A stretch of DNA of 9,561 nucleotides from an uncultured Prevotellaceae bacterium (GTDB lineage Bacteria > Bacteroidota > Bacteroidia > Bacteroidales > Bacteroidaceae): the NCBI GenBank assembly GCA_937892315.1, contig CALAVF010000449.1, forward strand, positions 1 to 9,561. Reading direction: 5' to 3'. The position numbers and the translations under genes are program-made. The notes beneath the pieces were generated by a model. That model made no database searches, was not told the DNA's origin, and saw only the letters and a list, made by a program, of their open reading frames with translations. Below are positions 1-9,561 of this stretch, in pieces (position 1 is the first letter of the stretch; each line of letters starts with the position of its first letter).

Positions 1-906
1 GGTGGCTACTCCGTCGGTCAACTCACGCTCACGTCACCTACGACACTGTACATCTTCGTTGGCGGTCAAGGCGGTTCGTCGGGCAACGGCGGCTGGAACG
101 GTGGTGGTGGCGGTTCGGGTTCCTCAGCCTACAATGCGGGCAACGTGTATGGTGTTTCACGCATGGGTTGCGGTGGTGGAGCAACCGACATCGCCTTGGT
201 GACAAGCGACATGAGTTATTCATCCTACCGCACCAATCGCTCTTCGGAATCTCTGCTTTCCCGAATCATCGTGGCTGGAGGCGGCTCTGGCGGTGCAGAC
301 ACCTACAGGGCAACCACTACGACCACGACCACTACGGTGACTGACTATTCGGTAAGTGGTTCGTTGCTGACAGCGAGCAGTTACAATGGCGATTCGGTAA
401 GCGGAAGCACACTTACCTTTGCTGGAACAACCTCGTATTCGTCAGACACGGCAACCATCACCGACACGCACTCGGAATCCTCCTCCTCAACCACGACCAG
501 CAATGATTATCAGGTCGGGTATGTTGGCGGTGGAACGTCGGGCGGTGGTTATTCATCTACCTACCAAGGACGAATCAATGCGGCAGGTTCAAGCGGAGGT
601 TTCGGCTATGGAGCGAACATGACGATTGGGAACTACCGACATTGCTCTGCTTGCGGTGGCGGTGGATGGTACGGAGGAGGTTCTTCCTACAGCGATGACA
701 CCATTACCACTGTGCGTTATAGCGGCGGTGGCAGCGGATGGGTGAACACCTCAGCCAATTCGTCCTACCGACCAACGGGCTACACGGGGGTGGAACTTGA
801 CAGCGGTACGACCTACGCAGGAGACACGTCATTCACATCGACGAGTGGAGGTACTGAGACTGGGCACAGCGGCAACGGCTACGCAAGAATCACAAGATTA
901 TCATAA
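1..906 (+). CDS. Glycine-rich tail/surface protein, 3' part (5' end outside window)
   Basis: The reading frame is open from base 1 and stops at 904-906, giving 301 visible residues. The true start is upstream; the GTG at 145 is an internal valine codon. The sequence shows the layout of the glycine-rich domain common in phage tail proteins and surface proteins of gut bacteria: a strand ending TLYIFVGGQGG, then GGWNGGGGG, GGGATDI, SRIIVAGGGSGG, a second glycine block, GGGGWYGGGSS, and a closing GNGYARITRLS. Between roughly residues 100 and 175 a Ser/Thr-rich stretch interrupts the domain, including a run of eight threonines with mixed codons. It precedes two small genes and the switching fibre gene on the same strand, so a place in the tail tip or fibre is likely. 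The exact role is inferred. Base composition is more GC-rich than the right half of the window. Confidence 0.8.
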   Translation, partial: GGYSVGQLTLTSPTTLYIFVGGQGGSSGNGGWNGGGGGSGSSAYNAGNVYGVSRMGCGGGATDIALVTSDMSYSSYRTNRSSESLLSRIIVAGGGSGGADTYRATTTTTTTTVTDYSVSGSLLTASSYNGDSVSGSTLTFAGTTSYSSDTATITDTHSESSSSTTTSNDYQVGYVGGGTSGGGYSSTYQGRINAAGSSGGFGYGANMTIGNYRHCSACGGGGWYGGGSSYSDDTITTVRYSGGGSGWVNTSANSSYRPTGYTGVELDSGTTYAGDTSFTSTSGGTETGHSGNGYARITRLS

Positions 907-929: not shown

Positions 930-1277
930 ATGGAAAATGTAACCATCAAGACAGCGACCACACGCAAGGAGTTCACCTATGTAGGTGAAGACCTCTATGT
1001 GGAAGGAGCGGTAGAGCGTGACAACAGCACACAGCAGGTCACGACCGTCAACGGTGAACTCTACACCAAGGAATACGGCACAGACCAGCGTGCCAACTAT
1101 ATCGGCAACTTCAACGGTTGGATGTCGAGCGGTCAGATGAAGTATGACCTGCATGACATGGATGCCGAAAACACCATCCTTGCCGCCGACCTCATTGCCG
1201 AACTTGGCACCAAACTGCCCGACATTGCGGCGGAAGAGGTGACGGAAACAACACAGGAAGAAGAGGAAGAAGAATAA
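930..1277 (+). CDS. Small acidic phage protein, unrecognised
   Basis: A 115-residue protein starting at ATG 930, 23 bases after the glycine-rich gene, behind the A-rich leader AAAAAGAAAGGGAAACAAC typical of Bacteroidales starts. I do not recognise a family. The N-terminal two thirds are mixed strand-like sequence (KTATTRKEFTYVGEDLYVEG, then NYIGNFNGWMSSGQ), and the C-terminus is strongly acidic, ending TTQEEEEEE. There is no signal peptide or membrane segment. Its position between a tail-type glycine-rich gene and the fibre gene suggests a virion component or a fibre-assembly accessory, but that is context only. The 265-residue frame on the opposite strand over this area is a shadow of this gene and the next. 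Confidence 0.75.
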   Translation: MENVTIKTATTRKEFTYVGEDLYVEGAVERDNSTQQVTTVNGELYTKEYGTDQRANYIGNFNGWMSSGQMKYDLHDMDAENTILAADLIAELGTKLPDIAAEEVTETTQEEEEEE

Positions 1278-1291
1278 ACTCACTCCATTTT

Positions 1292-1337
1292 CTCTGTCGG
1301 CTCTGCTTTCTTTCAAAAGGAGGCTGGAGCCACAGAG
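1292..1337 (+). other. Intergenic hairpin between two tail-region genes
   Basis: CTCTGT-C-GGCTC (1292-1303) can pair with GAGCC-ACAGAG (1327-1337), giving 11 pairs with a single bulged C. The loop contains AAAAGGAGG, a Shine-Dalgarno-like string. No T-tract follows, so a classic terminator is unlikely. A leader structure or an RNA processing site is possible. Confidence 0.45.
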
Positions 1338-1364
1338 GGAATGCAAAAGAAAAACAGAAAGAAA

Positions 1365-1691
1365 ATGGAAGAAAAAAAGATTAAAATCACCGCTTACTAC
1401 ATCTCGCTGCTCGGAAAGATGCAGCAGGAGGATTGGGTGGTGAGCACCACGCAGGAGGCTCAGACCTTCGTCGAGACGCAGATGAGTCTCTACACGCAGC
1501 CGAAGTATGAACTGACGGCTACCAAGACCACGGTGGATGGCTACGAATATGACGTGACCCGATTCGTGGAGTTCAAGTTCTCGCACCTTGATGTCACCGA
1601 CTACACGGACGGTCACGAGGTAATGGAAACCGCCGAAATTGACGGAGCAGTTAAAGAAAATAGTCAAACCCTTCAAATAAACGATAAATAG
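1365..1691 (+). CDS. Small phage protein upstream of the fibre gene, unrecognised
   Basis: A 108-residue protein if it starts at ATG 1365 (MEEKKIKITAYY). An in-frame ATG at 1341 would add eight residues. I prefer 1365 because the A-rich stretch directly before it matches the leaders of neighbouring genes; the AGGAGG before 1341 lies 17 bases away, too far for normal use. The protein is mixed alpha/beta, with ITAYYISLLGKMQQEDWVVS near the start and YDVTRFVEFKFSHLDVTDYT in the second half. It has no membrane segment or signal peptide. Its stop lies two bases before the fibre ATG at 1694, so the two are almost certainly translated from one message. No family recognised. By position a fibre-associated or assembly role is plausible, not shown. 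Confidence 0.75.
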   Translation: MEEKKIKITAYYISLLGKMQQEDWVVSTTQEAQTFVETQMSLYTQPKYELTATKTTVDGYEYDVTRFVEFKFSHLDVTDYTDGHEVMETAEIDGAVKENSQTLQINDK

Positions 1692-1693
1692 TT

Positions 1694-2095
1694 ATGGCAG
1701 CAATTACACAAATCAAACTCAGTTCAACAGGTACAACCTACAACATCTACGATTACAGAATCGGAACGTCCACCATCAGCACATGCAGTTATGTATTGGG
1801 CATGACGAGCACATCTGGCAACATCAATCCTATCTCAACGAGCAACTTGGCATCAGTTCTGGGGGTGCCTAATAGTGCCGTATATAGCACAGCAGTTACC
1901 CTCGATTCACTACCGACAGGTGTATATCATGTTTATAGAGATGCTGTGGATGGCTCAGAGTTTCCCACAGAAGGGATTGCAGTTATTGAAGTTGCATCAA
2001 GCACAGCCAAAATTGCATTGCTAATTTCTTCCCACAACGTTCTATATACTAACGTTAAATGGAACGCATGGAAAGGGTGGAAAGAAATAAGTTAG
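1694..2095 (+). CDS. Fibre-type protein with switchable C-terminus (expressed state, cassette A)
   Basis: A 133-residue protein in two parts. Residues 1-58 are the constant part, ending in TSNLASVLGV; the codons for VLGV are the site GTTCTGGGGGTG at 1856-1867. Residues 59-133 are the variable part (cassette A). It reads like a pyocin-knob type domain: a PTGVYHVYRDA start, a central strand with AVIEVASSTAKIALLIS, and a closing WNAWKGWKEIS. That Trp-x-x-Trp ending is typical of receptor-facing tips of tail fibres. Two silent cassettes downstream on the other strand start with the same VLGV codons and end with similar WxxW motifs, so inversion should swap the last 75 residues while keeping the N-terminus. 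The stop is only six bases from the stop of the convergent cassette B. Fibre assignment rests on motif recognition; the switching is inferred from the repeat layout. Confidence 0.8.
   Translation: MAAITQIKLSSTGTTYNIYDYRIGTSTISTCSYVLGMTSTSGNINPISTSNLASVLGVPNSAVYSTAVTLDSLPTGVYHVYRDAVDGSEFPTEGIAVIEVASSTAKIALLISSHNVLYTNVKWNAWKGWKEIS
1856..1867 (+). repeat. Shufflon site 1 (GTTCTGGGGGTG), in the expressed gene
   Basis: The 12-base string GTTCTGGGGGTG encodes VLGV in frame at residues 55-58 of the fibre protein. The same string occurs inverted at 2369-2380 and 2739-2750, and with one base missing at 2387-2397. Flanking bases are not conserved among the copies. Confidence 0.85.
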
Positions 2096-2101
2096 ACTAT
2101 T

Positions 2102-2380
2102 CTAAATCTGCACCCAACTGCTCCAACTGCCTCCAACGAGTACCCTGTAATAGGCCCCGTTTCCGGCAACAGAACTTTTAAATCCGATTGCTATTTGTGT
2201 ACCATAAGTTCGGGGTGTGCTCGTGCCTTGTAGTATGTATGTGAGGACATAGCAATAGTTGCAAGGAAAGTTATTATTGGCTGACCCTGTAGTGTGAGCA
2301 CAAAAAGAAAGGTGTGCCAAATTATCAGCATCGGTTGCTCCGATATTGCCTCCAGTTCCGACCGCCTGCACCCCCAGAAC
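2102..2380 (-). pseudogene. Silent fibre C-terminal cassette B (no start codon; not decayed)
   Basis: Read on the minus strand from 2380, this begins with site GTTCTGGGGGTG (VLGV) and continues in frame QAVGTGGNIGATDADNL to a TAG at 2102-2104. It has no ATG of its own; the apparent start codon is the GTG inside the site. About 89 residues follow the site: a Cys-bearing centre, TYGTQIAIGFK, then YYRVLVGGSWSSWVQI. The end matches the knob-type WxxW closing seen in cassettes A and C. It lies tail to tail with A (six bases between stops), so inverting 1856-2380 would join it in frame to the constant N-terminus. It is labelled pseudogene only because the schema lacks a class for silent cassettes; the reading frame is intact and probably functional when inverted. 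Confidence 0.8.
2369..2380 (-). repeat. Shufflon site 2 (inverted), head of cassette B
   Basis: The complement reads GTTCTGGGGGTG, identical to site 1 over 12 bases. It stands head to head with site 3, separated by GATTTT, so the pair makes a near-perfect palindrome. Confidence 0.85.
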
Positions 2381-2386
2381 GATTTT

Positions 2387-2397
2387 GTTCTGGGGGG
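2387..2397 (+). repeat. Shufflon site 3 (GTTCTGGGGGG, one T missing)
   Basis: The copy reads GTTCTGGGGGG followed by CTGGGAGAG. Inserting one T between the fifth and sixth G would restore the GTTCTGGGGGTG of the other three sites and put the downstream remnant in frame. It has the same orientation as site 1. Confidence 0.75.
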
Positions 2398-2466
2398 CTG
2401 GGAGAGTCTGTGTGTATTTTGGTTATGGTTGAGAGTTCTTGGTTTGGCTGGGTCTCACTCTCTTAA
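2387..2466 (+). pseudogene. Decayed fourth cassette D (short, out of frame with its site)
   Basis: In the frame ending at TAA 2464-2466, the sequence from 2398 reads LGESVCILVMVESSWFGWVSLS, a short C-terminus whose WxxW and final serine resemble the ends of cassettes A (WKGWKEIS), B (WSSWVQI) and C (WNSWVAQRS). This frame is one base out relative to VLG in site 3, exactly what loss of the T from the canonical site would cause. The body of a knob domain is absent: only 22 residues follow the site, against 75-89 in the other cassettes. I read it as an internally deleted, frameshifted relic, or an assembly scar from mixed inversion states. The longer frame through 2551 (GWESLCVFWLWL and on) runs across the antisense of cassette C and looks non-native. 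Confidence 0.5.
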
Positions 2467-2495
2467 TCAAAATAAAAGCACCTTGTGCCCTACCG

Positions 2496-2750
2496 TTACG
2501 ACCTTTGTGCTACCCATGAATTCCAGTTATACCCCGATGACTTTGTTCTGACGTATAGGATTCTGCTACCATCATTTTGGCAGACTATTTGACAAACATC
2601 ACTACGCCCTATAACCAAGACATACCACCAACTACTACCAGAACTAACGGGGACTCCGTCTGTTGGGGCGAAGTAATAAAAGCCAGGAGTGGTACAATCG
2701 TCCAGAGAACCTGAAAATGTTGCCGCTCTGTATGAACCCACCCCCAGAAC
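2496..2750 (-). pseudogene. Silent fibre C-terminal cassette C (no start codon; not decayed)
   Basis: Read on the minus strand from 2750, the frame begins in site GTTCTGGGGGTG (VLGV), continues GSYRAATFSGSLDDC, and stops at TAA 2496-2498, about 81 residues after the site. The apparent start is the GTG of the site, so the cassette cannot be expressed where it lies. The domain is the clearest knob type of the three: TTPGFYYFAP near the start, WWYVLVIGRSDVCQIVCQ in the middle, ILYVRTKSSGYNWNSWVAQ at the end. It lies directly downstream of the recombinase stop codon. Inverting 1856-2750 would fuse it to the fibre N-terminus. It is classed as pseudogene only for lack of a silent-cassette type; no damage is visible. 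Confidence 0.8.
2739..2750 (-). repeat. Shufflon site 4 (inverted), overlapping the recombinase stop
   Basis: The complement reads GTTCTGGGGGTG, identical to sites 1 and 2. Its first base is the last base of the recombinase TAG (2750-2752), so the array boundary and the recombinase gene meet exactly here. Confidence 0.85.
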
Positions 2751-3931
2751 TATTCTTCCTCTCCTCCTTTCCTTTTCCTCTTTCCGAACACCCGTTCAAC
2801 GTCTTTTTCAATCACGGACAAACCTAATTTCGCATAGTTGCGTGTCGTTTCAATCTTGCTATGTGCCGCCATCATCTGAACGGTCGTAATCGCTATGCCC
2901 TCCTCAATACACAACGTGATAAACGTGTGTCGGGCAAGATGGAAGTGGGCATACTTCTTGATGCCTGCCTTGGCGAACACCTCCTTCAATGTGCGATTGG
3001 CGGAGGCGTTGTTGCCGATATGGAAGAATCGTTGGATGGATTTGTATTGTGAGAGTATTTTCATCGCCTTGCCCTTGAAAATCGTCTCGATGGGAATCCG
3101 AGCCGTGTCACCCGTCTTTCGGGTCTGCAAAATCAGCCACTTCTTTTTTCGAATAATCTGGAAGTCTTCATCGGTGAGATTCGTCAGGTCAGAATAGCGG
3201 AGTCCACACATGCAGTCAAACACGAACACGTCACGGATATGTGCCATCCTTCCCCTCATCCTTGTCTTCAAGAGTAGTTCCACCTCATCGGGCGTGAGGC
3301 TTTCATCTCGGCTCTTGATTTTCTTGATGCGGAATGACTTGAATGGGTCGTCGTCACTGCTGATGAGTTTTCGTGCAATCGCCTCGTTGATGATGGCTCG
3401 CAGGTTCTTGAGTCTTCCTGATATGGTGGATTGCGTCATGCCCTGTGCTTTGCTCCAATCGGAGAATCGGTTGAGAAAGTCAATGTCGATGTCTGCAATG
3501 GTTGTGCCTTTCTGAAACTTCTCCACATGCTTGATAAGTGTCTGATAAGATGCCCTTGTATGCTCACCCCTATAAGCCGAATGCTCGTTGATGGAATTGA
3601 CAAAATCTGCAAACGAGGCTGATGCGGAGATATGATGCAGAACGGCATTCTTCAACTGGAGGAGCGTGGGTGTCTGCCCTCGCCTGATAAACTCCAGTTC
3701 CACCTTTTCAACATCCATCATGCTCTTGTATAGATAGGCGTTGAGGTCGGCGGCATGAGGATGGTTTACTACAAAGCCGTTCTGCCATTGCTCAGGGTTA
3801 AGGTAAATGTTGGTTGAGAAAAAAATACGCTGCCCATGCAAGAGGCATTCAATTTGCACGAGGGCAGTTCCTTTCTTGTTTAGATGTCGTGTCCGATTAT
3901 ATACCAGTCTGTATCTTATTTTGTCTAACAT
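2750..3931 (-). CDS. Tyrosine recombinase, probable shufflon invertase
   Basis: A 393-residue tyrosine recombinase, the usual length for Bacteroidales integrase/invertase proteins. It shows an N-terminal arm-binding type domain (about 1-90, RYRLVYNRTRHLNKKGTA), a helical core-binding domain (about 105-200, ASFADFVNSINEHS through PFKSFRIKKIK), and a catalytic domain (about 210-380). All catalytic residues are visible: Arg245 in CGLRYSDL, Lys272 in QTRKTG, His331 and Arg334 in HLARH, His357 in AAHS, and nucleophile Tyr366 in RNYAKLG. The C-terminus is basic then acidic (GKRKRKGGEEE). Start ATG at 3929-3931 lies within a short dyad, AACATT-T-AATGTT. The stop overlaps shufflon site 4. The gene faces the array and has its own upstream control region. 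Acting on the four GTTCTGGGGG sites is inferred from adjacency; it could also, or instead, be the phage integrase. Confidence 0.92.
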   Translation of the reverse strand: MLDKIRYRLVYNRTRHLNKKGTALVQIECLLHGQRIFFSTNIYLNPEQWQNGFVVNHPHAADLNAYLYKSMMDVEKVELEFIRRGQTPTLLQLKNAVLHHISASASFADFVNSINEHSAYRGEHTRASYQTLIKHVEKFQKGTTIADIDIDFLNRFSDWSKAQGMTQSTISGRLKNLRAIINEAIARKLISSDDDPFKSFRIKKIKSRDESLTPDEVELLLKTRMRGRMAHIRDVFVFDCMCGLRYSDLTNLTDEDFQIIRKKKWLILQTRKTGDTARIPIETIFKGKAMKILSQYKSIQRFFHIGNNASANRTLKEVFAKAGIKKYAHFHLARHTFITLCIEEGIAITTVQMMAAHSKIETTRNYAKLGLSVIEKDVERVFGKRKRKGGEEE

Positions 3932-3965
3932 TTAATGTTTCTTTTCTGTCTTTTTTAGGGTGCAA

Positions 3966-3984
3966 TGTAACACACCATGTTACA
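3966..3984. promoter_or_regulatory. Inverted repeat TGTAACA-CACCA-TGTTACA, candidate operator
   Basis: A perfect 7-base dyad with a 5-base spacer lies between the recombinase gene and the rightward membrane-protein gene. The right arm overlaps two tandem GTTACAAA copies (3979-3994) and the recombinase -7 candidate. Its position suits a repressor site controlling the recombinase; no regulator is visible in the window. Confidence 0.45.
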
Positions 3985-3990
3985 AAGTTA
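3983..3990 (-). promoter_or_regulatory. Candidate -7 box for the recombinase gene
   Basis: The minus strand reads TAACTTTG, matching the Bacteroides TAnnTTTG -7 pattern, about 52 bases before the recombinase ATG. No good -33 TTTG is seen at the expected spacing, so the promoter may be weak or activator dependent. Confidence 0.35.
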
Positions 3991-4008
3991 CAAATTTTTT
4001 CAGAATTA

Positions 4009-4077: not shown

Positions 4078-4314
4078 ATGGGATTTATTACAAAACACAC
4101 AACGGCAAAGCAGAGGAACATATTGGGAGCAACTATTGCGTTTGTTCTTTCGCTCCTTTTTAGCGGTATCGGAATACTTGTCATGCTTTATAGGGAATAC
4201 TACCAAAGTAAGAAATATGTTTTTCCTATTGAGACTGACGATGTAATAAGATACTCTATTAGCGGTTCATTTGGCTGCATCTGCAATTCTATTTGCATTT
4301 GTTGCTTTTTATAA
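4078..4314 (+). CDS. Small membrane protein, probably frameshifted near its second helix
   Basis: As it stands, a 78-residue protein starting at ATG 4078, 38 bases after a promoter. Residues about 16-37 form a membrane helix (GATIAFVLSLLFSGIGILVML), followed by a charged stretch YREYYQSKKYVFPIETDDVIRY. After that the frame yields a Cys-rich tail (GCICNSICICCFL) unlike a membrane protein. In the +1 frame the same bases read LLAVHLAASAILFAFVAFYK and end in KETM with TAA at 4328-4330. That is a clean second helix with a basic end. A one-base skip between 4250 and about 4265 would join them, giving about 83 residues with two helices. This could be a real mutation, a sequencing or assembly error, or a programmed shift. 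No family recognised. It stands alone between a promoter and a terminator, next to the recombinase. Confidence 0.6.
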   Translation: MGFITKHTTAKQRNILGATIAFVLSLLFSGIGILVMLYREYYQSKKYVFPIETDDVIRYSISGSFGCICNSICICCFL

Positions 4315-5879: not shown

Positions 5880-6425
5880 ATGGATTTTAATTCACTTGGT
5901 AACGGTAATCCGTTTTACGTGCTCCGCAAAGGAGAGAAGCCAGTTTTGGAAGTGGGTGTGGTAAAGAGCAAAACACAGCCAAGAGCCAAATTCCCAACGC
6001 AAACCCCGAACATCATGCAAGGTGTTCAAATACAGCAGGTGATTGATGTAACGGCAACCATCAACGGAAAGGATGAGACGTTCCCTGACATTCCCGTAAA
6101 CGTGGAAATTGCCGCAAGAGGTAATGACACCTTTAGCGGCAGTCGAGAGGCAATGCTTCAAGCCGTAGATGCCATGTTGCAGACATCAAAGAAAGCAATC
6201 GACCAGATACCTTATCATAAGAGTGTCATTGCCGAAAGTGAAAAGATGCTGGAGGTCTTGAATCCTCAGTATGCTGACAACAAACGTCAAGCACGGACAA
6301 TTCAATCTTTAGAGGAAAAGCAGAGGGCTACAGACCAGAAATTGGCGACGCTTGAACAGCAAAACGCTGAAATGCTTTCTATCCTTCGTTCATTGAATGG
6401 GTCTCCATCACCAAGTTCTGTTTAA
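5880..6425 (+). CDS. Phage protein with C-terminal coiled coil, unrecognised
   Basis: A 181-residue protein starting at ATG 5880 after the A-rich leader CAATTAAACAACAAGACG. The N-terminal half is mixed (NPFYVLRKGEKPVLEVGVVKS, TPNIMQGVQIQQVIDVTATI) and may form a small beta domain. Residues about 85-175 are helical: EAMLQAVDAMLQTSKKAID, then heptad-like ARTIQSLEEKQRATDQKLATL ending in LRSLNGSPSPSSV. No membrane segment, no catalytic motif, no family recognised. The coiled coil suggests it forms oligomers. It sits in the same direction as its neighbours with a 30-base gap upstream and 37 bases downstream, within the run started at 4466. A virion or scaffold-like role is possible. Confidence 0.78.
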   Translation: MDFNSLGNGNPFYVLRKGEKPVLEVGVVKSKTQPRAKFPTQTPNIMQGVQIQQVIDVTATINGKDETFPDIPVNVEIAARGNDTFSGSREAMLQAVDAMLQTSKKAIDQIPYHKSVIAESEKMLEVLNPQYADNKRQARTIQSLEEKQRATDQKLATLEQQNAEMLSILRSLNGSPSPSSV

Positions 6426-8975: not shown

Positions 8976-9534
8976 TTATTTGTTTTGTTCCCTTAAATAA
9001 TCGACTATCTTGGCCATATCATCAAAGTACAAATCAAAGGAATAGTAATCATCATCCATATAAATAGTGATACCACAACCATCTGGTGCTTCAAAAAATT
9101 CATAAGTTTCAAGAGATAAACCACGCCGAGCCTCTAAAGGTAAATTTTTAAGATTAGTGCGAGCAATGGAAATATCAGCCTGAATCATTTCAATTTCTTT
9201 AGATTCAAGTTCTAATTCTTCAGGAGATTTTAAGCATAGACGTCGATGGTGTTCGTCGATATTTTTTGTTACACTGTATTTCACGCCATTTGTCTGTTCA
9301 TCTGTTTGAAAATTATCAGGATAATCGAATGTATTATTGGATTCAAGATAAATGCCAAAATCATTGCAAGCACGGCAACAAATTTCTTGAAAATCCAAGC
9401 GATAATCAAGGTTGTAAAAGAAAGCGAGAAGATGAATATTGTTGAAAGCCTCATTACATTTAAAGCAATGATAAATCCAAGCGTTGCCGACAAAGTTTGG
9501 TTGAATACCAGTGCCATCTTTGCCTGTACCATTG
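8976..9534 (-). CDS. Primase-type zinc-finger protein, 5'-truncated at contig end, possibly chimeric
   Basis: The frame is open on the minus strand from the adapter junction at 9534 to TAA 8976-8978, about 185 residues; the real start is off the contig. The apparent start at 9398 is an internal TTG. The N-terminal visible part reads NGTGKDGTGI, then WIYHCFKCNEAF and DFQEICCRA. This matches the zinc-ribbon of DnaG/CHC2-type phage and plasmid primases (Cys-x-x-Cys, GNGTGxxGTG, YHCFxC); the first cysteine pair is cut off. Next comes a charged linker and EARRGLSLETYEFF, as in primases with a following toprim region. There the likeness stops: the last 38 residues (EAPDGCGITIYMDDDYYSFD and on) are not toprim-like, and the protein ends. 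It is either a short relative, a truncated gene, or an assembly join near 9090. Confidence 0.55.
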
Positions 9535-9561
9535 AGATCGGAAGAGCGTCGTGTAGGGAAA
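9535..9561. other. Illumina adapter read-through (artefact)
   Basis: The last 27 bases are AGATCGGAAGAGC followed directly by GTCGTGTAGGGAAA, the reverse complement of the 3' part of the Illumina universal adapter. This is library sequence, not biology. It marks the contig end and shows incomplete trimming. Confidence 0.97.

Follow-up and report, generated by a model that had tools for sequence, protein, structure and literature searches.

A tail-fibre locus with silent alternative tips was identified in a 9,561-nt stretch of DNA (the window; contig CALAVF010000449.1 of GenBank assembly GCA_937892315.1, deposited as an uncultured Prevotellaceae bacterium). By its sequence, the window is phage-like; related sequences occur in bacteria of the Bacteroidales and in phages of this group. 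The locus comprises a fibre gene, inverted C-terminal cassettes headed by a common 12-bp site and an adjoining tyrosine recombinase gene, and it is very probably a phage tail-fibre (receptor-binding protein) shufflon. From this arrangement we infer that the recombinase is the responsible enzyme, that flipping occurs in the window phage and that it changes the host receptor which is bound.

The expressed fibre gene (1694..2095, plus strand) encodes 133 amino acids, with a constant part of residues 1-55 and tip A beginning at residue 56. Site 1 (GTTCTGGGGGTG, 1856..1867, plus strand) is located inside this gene at residues 55-58 (VLGV) and contains the core CTGGGGG at 1859-1865. Exact inverted copies are found downstream as site 2 (2369..2380) and site 4 (2739..2750), both on the minus strand, so that the window holds three exact copies of GTTCTGGGGGTG, one on the plus and two on the minus strand, as a sequence-only reading of this DNA had reported. 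No 12-mer occurred three times in any of 1000 dinucleotide shuffles of the segment 1694-2752. Further matches with two mismatches at 284 and 2208 look like chance. Site 4 and the recombinase stop codon have one base in common, the junction consisting of TA followed directly by GTTCTGGGGGTG; this overlap is not mentioned in the sequence-only reading, and the same arrangement is present in the related locus L003.

Site 2 heads the silent cassette B (2102..2380, minus strand, 92 codons from the site) and site 4 heads the silent cassette C (2496..2750, minus strand, 84 codons from the site), both of the pyocin-knob type by profile. Translation confirmed that both frames are open from VLGV in the phase of the expressed gene and end, like tip A, with WxxW; the six bases described between stop codons were found between those of A and B. 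Upstream of B and C, no in-frame ATG, GTG or TTG occurs before a stop codon. The GTG which closes each site is the sole formal start at the head of these frames, and the claim that they have no start codon holds for the upstream region but not for the site itself.

A degenerate site 3 (GTTCTGGGGGGC, 2387..2398, plus strand) has two mismatches to GTTCTGGGGGTG and lies back to back with site 2, with 12 nt between their 7-bp cores. It opens cassette D (2387..2466, plus strand), which contains a remnant of a knob C-terminus (SSWFGWVSLS) in a frame different from that of the site. D is most readily taken as a frameshifted relic of a knob end and not as a usable tip. The proposal that two successive inversions could bring up D as a further tip was not borne out, since besides the degenerate site its knob-like end lies in another frame than VLG, and D brought up in this way would not give a knob.

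The recombinase gene (2750..3931, minus strand) encodes 393 amino acids and is the proposed shufflon invertase. Its product contains an Arm-DNA-bind_5 domain (residues 10-90, E-value 2.1e-11), a SAM-like core-binding domain and the catalytic Phage_integrase domain (PF00589), and judged by its position and family it is most likely the enzyme flipping the tips. It would recombine site 1 with either inverted site, the crossover most likely falling within the 7-bp core CTGGGGG, which encodes Leu-Gly. Inversion between sites 1 and 2 would replace tip A by tip B, and inversion between sites 1 and 4 would replace it by tip C, the reading frame being kept in both cases. Translation of the predicted products joins the fibre start in frame with B or C. 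This fits the earlier proposal for the two inversions as far as the frames are concerned. The constant N-terminal 55 residues would remain on the virion, and the exchanged knob would be the likely receptor-binding tip. The directly oriented site pairs 1-3 and 2-4 could delete cassettes. With receptor-binding-protein shufflons in general, the window shares an in-frame site between constant and variable parts, two silent inverted site-headed C-termini with no upstream start (the GTG within the site being a caveat), and a site-specific recombinase gene flanking the cassettes.

All three tips A, B and C are pyocin-type knobs by profile, A and C also by predicted fold. A knob profile from which the cassettes of the window had been omitted matched three of the 83 open reading frames (ORFs) of the window, which are A, B and C (B with an E-value of 1.6e-8). 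A profile of 30 cassettes, including the three of the window, matched the R2 pyocin fibre (6cl6, E-value 3.6e-8) and the R1 pyocin fibre (6cl5, E-value 6.7e-7) in the PDB, and the predicted folds of the modelled tips A and C likewise match pyocin-type knobs, the matched entries including these two fibres and staphylococcal phage receptor-binding proteins. In Pfam and NCBIfam no match at curated level was found for the three tips. Among the 30 cassettes one matched DUF4165 in the family library (0.0019), and PHROGs gave weak tail matches for A (0.039) and C (0.005) as well as a match of B to a family of unknown function (0.003). The matched knob entries are parts of single fibres, whereas the knobs of the window would be exchangeable cassettes; we know of no shuffling of pyocin-type knobs in the matched entries.

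The same organisation was found in seven related loci. The closest recombinases are encoded in a viral contig (L001, 78% identical to that of the window), a roe deer rumen Bacteroidaceae genome (L002, 81%) and the Bacteroidaceae genome RUI029 (L003, 79%), and a wider profile added L038, L016, L040 and L041 with recombinases of 48-54% identity. Together with the window they form a supported clade (100/99) on a tree of 98 rows, from which loci fetched a second time or nearly identical to others, and matches with <300 aligned residues, were excluded. Each of the eight clade loci has at least one knob frame near the recombinase and, next to the recombinase, CTGGG(C/G)G cores of both orientations. 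Within hand-set array ranges, the number of cores is 4 in the window, 2 in L001, 3 in L002 (whose contig is cut), 6 in L003, 5 in L016, 8 in L038, 10 in L040 and 11 in L041; cores without an intact frame occur, e.g., at L041:3034. Relative to the recombinase, the array is 3′ in six clade loci and 5′ in L001 and L002. An expressed gene is visible in six of the seven relatives, with a long N-terminal part preceding the site, which ends with LASV- in the window, L001, L003, L016, L040 and L041 and with LAAV- in L038. The contig of L002 stops before reaching the fibre gene, and of the three cassettes of this locus two are short or cut.

L016 and the window share the fibre N-terminus as well as other genes. 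When the window was compared with L001 by blastn, the recombinase excluded, the sole match with an E-value <0.5 was a 28-bp segment ending in the site; tblastx added one more common gene (4099-4299). In L001, a 1-nt frameshift splits the recombinase gene (6200-6280), which is either a sequencing error or a broken gene.

The 7-bp sequence CTGGGCG is the part common to all sites in L040 and L041, which suggests that the crossover takes place there and that the crossover core of the clade is CTGGG(C/G)G. In seven of 12 back-to-back pairs of silent cores, sites 2 and 3 of the window included, the cores are 12 nt apart; spacings of 9, 11, 14, 16 and 17 nt occur in the others. As both sites of a pair read the spacer as their left flank, the 12-nt spacer may be a shared recombinase arm. 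Before the core of the expressed gene, the sequence TTGGCATCAGTT is identical, synonymous positions included, in the otherwise diverged fibres of the window (1839-1867), L001 (5380-5408), L003 (near 9155), L016 (326-344) and L040 (near 10612). The left flank differs in L038 and L041. TTGGCATCAGTT is possibly a DNA-level half-site at the expressed position.

A second class of cassettes, about 120-147 residues long and lacking the WxxW end, was observed at L003:7161, L046:4115, L117:585, L151:5229 and L152:5029. Several of them end like LPSDAV.., and most of these arrays hold knob cassettes too. Going by these ORFs, tips of unrelated types seem to be combined in shufflons.

Overall, it is probable that one clade of tyrosine recombinases with arm domains, distributed across phages and prophage-like regions of Bacteroidales, is dedicated to fibre-tip shufflons that have 1-10 further site-headed cassettes, a 7-bp Leu-Gly core and, at most back-to-back silent sites, one 12-bp spacer, and that these phages counter the inversion-driven surface variation of the hosts by inversion.

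Two more distant relatives show different tips joined at the site to the same fibre start. BS-TP2 is a cultured Bacteroides phage from sewage, and the tail genes of MT837885, from human faeces, share blocks of 98.4-99.8% identity with it. In BS-TP2 the fibre start continues into a tip that begins with LMPIANLG. In the contig MT837885 the same fibre start continues into LLGVSSST, which is silent and inverted in BS-TP2, and the exact-match blocks from the two BS-TP2 sources overlap in MT837885 at precisely CTGGAAG (7 nt). MT837885 next carries the block LMPIANLG..LLGINDTW, 91.7% identical to BS-TP2, behind the flank HKIYLFAL, which in BS-TP2 precedes another cassette. In a reconstruction from the two sequences, two inversions, one of the whole array and one of its inner part, would place the three visible cassettes of MT837885 in their observed order and orientation. 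A further pair of loci, L046 and L154, shares a fibre N-terminus (92% identical) which ends at the site, and their tips differ. In the BS-TP2 record PQ571275.1 (L117, L119), 141 bases are repeated at both ends, so that in linear form the record divides the shufflon; its silent cassettes are largely unannotated or split. The related loci, the profile and fold matches and this swap support the earlier view of the locus as a shufflon with knob-type tips and of the tyrosine recombinase as its enzyme.

Several observations weigh against this reading. The recombinase of BS-TP2, which stands beside the swap, is only 37% identical to that of the window. The last 32 nt of MT837885, behind the third site, have no match in the BS-TP2 array, which implies a further cassette or an exchange beyond the two inversions, and an exchange between phages at the site is a possible explanation for MT837885. 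L046, L047 and L048, representing one related phage in three samples, are colinear without a change of orientation. For the window's own locus no alternative orientation was seen, and no second copy of the phage was found. The fibre protein of the window had no close relative in the viral_contigs database, and a search of 5.8 billion proteins gave one match, the protein itself, among 11 candidates; as both searches missed the fibre of L016, their reach is short. Open length by itself is weak evidence for B and C, since 25 of 2000 shuffles reached the open length of B and 19 of 2000 that of C. The arm domain of the window recombinase is integrase-like, and 83 of the 98 tree recombinases lack a neighbouring knob frame.

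It could be argued that B, C and D are dead leftovers of fibre-end duplications, serving no function, and that the 12-mer is a coding sequence (LASVLGV) conserved where each knob begins. D indeed resembles a relic, and LASV-LG is a coding motif of several fibres. However, B and C are open and match a knob profile built without the window, opposed site cores lie beside the recombinase in all eight clade loci, and BS-TP2 and MT837885 differ by a tip swap at the site, so that dead remnants appear very unlikely. That the recombinase is instead the phage integrase acting on attachment-type repeats, cassette exchange being a by-product or the work of another enzyme in trans, would agree with the arm domain, and no other integrase was recognised in the 9.5-kb window. 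We regard this as highly improbable, as BS-TP2 carries a second annotated integrase, the product of L003:3479-4756 resembles an integrase by eye (without a family search), and the recombinase adjoins such cassettes in all eight clade loci.

An assembly chimera of several phage variants is extremely improbable. The window is a metagenome-like contig whose end (9535-9561) resembles what we take to be an Illumina adapter, and the contigs of two relatives, L042 and L002, break off within the cassette array or at its border, which could reflect mixed orientations in the assembly. Independent loci nevertheless repeat a similar layout, among them L003, whose contig is 65 kb long, and loci on contigs of 44, 49 and 106 kb, and a chimera would itself suggest co-existing orientations.

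A knob frame was detected near the recombinase in 15 of the 98 tree rows, a number which is a floor, since non-knob cassettes escape the knob profile; L152 and L153, for example, have site cores but no knob. The broad family was rejected as shufflon-specific because of the 83 rows lacking a knob frame nearby. The knob label is clustered on the tree, requiring five changes (none of 500 shuffles was as low). The profile drew in part on these loci; L038, which is outside its sources, was found by it. The knob-bearing rows do not form one clade, and one of them, L027, is a long branch. Other knob-bearing members have the cores CTGGGAGAA (L046, L154), GTGGGAGGA (L150, L151) and CTGGAAG(A/G)AC (BS-TP2).

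Among 399 Bacteroidaceae genomes, a close recombinase (E-value <=1e-120) is present in two, those of L002 and L003, and a broader relative (E-value <=1e-85) in 56. The back-to-back core pattern with a 12-nt spacer was found in 21 stretches of viral_contigs, of which four belong to L040 (twice), L041 and L038, and the remaining 17 showed no knob frame. Outside the clade loci only seven back-to-back core pairs were found, all in re-fetched copies of L002, L003 and L016. A de novo k-mer site detector was rejected as too noisy, as 42 of 146 recombinase loci versus 40 of 66 null windows passed at three sites, many of the null loci being GC-rich, and the knob profile was therefore used for counting. 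Searches of window positions 1000-4000 (by blastn) and of L041 against phages gave nothing useful, and the L016 fibre found only its own contig in viral_contigs.

The closest known system is the Rin shufflon of Bifidobacterium and Eggerthella prophages, from which the window differs in enzyme, site and tips. According to PMC6109161, the Rin shufflon of Bifidobacterium prophages has a constant part of 168 residues, tips of 95-100 residues, 11-bp sites and a tyrosine recombinase distinct from the integrase, and inversions are described between sequenced copies. The exchange of a tip of about 80 residues, considered unfamiliar in the sequence-only reading, is close in scale to this precedent, and avoidance of deletion by direct sites is raised as a puzzle for Rin too (PMC6109161). 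Rin is also described in Eggerthella lenta prophages (PMC8778435). Rin and the window both have a constant N-terminus, silent site-headed C-termini and a flanking tyrosine recombinase. In contrast to the Arm-DNA-bind_5 domain of the window enzyme, the Bifidobacterium Rin recombinase is described as having no arm domain; its site is TTCCCTAACCC instead of GTTCTGGGGGTG with the core CTGGG(C/G)G, and its tips resemble a lactococcal phage receptor-binding protein and not pyocin-type knobs (PMC6109161). Rin occurs in Bifidobacterium and Eggerthella prophages, the window system in Bacteroidales-linked phages. Because the window departs from Bifidobacterium Rin in two features, the armless enzyme and the site, it works in a Rin-like manner, while Rin membership, compared here by description, is not established.

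Gin, Cin and Min of the phages Mu, P1 and p15B also swap tail-fibre ends by inversion. Tsr-type invertases are Bacteroidales tyrosine recombinases which invert DNA and act on host genes, whereas the window recombinase lies beside phage fibre tips. Diversity-generating retroelements work by mutagenic copying, unlike the proposed inversion of ready-made tips in the window. Gin, Cin and Min are serine recombinases, in contrast to the PF00589 catalytic domain of the window enzyme, and Tsr-type tyrosine invertases of Bacteroides fragilis are named in the same source (PMC6109161). Retroelements are reported to diversify phage tail proteins in gut prophages (PMC12629997). No description of a Bacteroidales phage fibre shufflon was found in the open-access literature.

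Upstream of the fibre gene, window positions 1-906 encode a glycine-rich protein with matches to ALK_LTK_GRD (E-value 7e-19) and phrog_1589. A minus-strand frame at 8976-9533 shows weak similarity to DNA primase (phrog_47, E-value 0.0024). The minus-strand ORF reading in from the contig end starts with FPTRRSSDL, presumably a typical adapter translation.

For annotation, such loci can be recognised by the rule that a tyrosine recombinase adjoins knob frames which lack a start and share a 7-12 bp site at their head, and one assembled fibre tip may not reveal the host range of such a phage. The cultured relative BS-TP2 makes the question of switching testable. DNA inversion is the means by which gut Bacteroidales vary their surface. 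If the proposed system is real, a phage family exchanging its fibre tips through the same class of chemistry would mirror this directly and could help to explain the long co-existence of these phages and their hosts.

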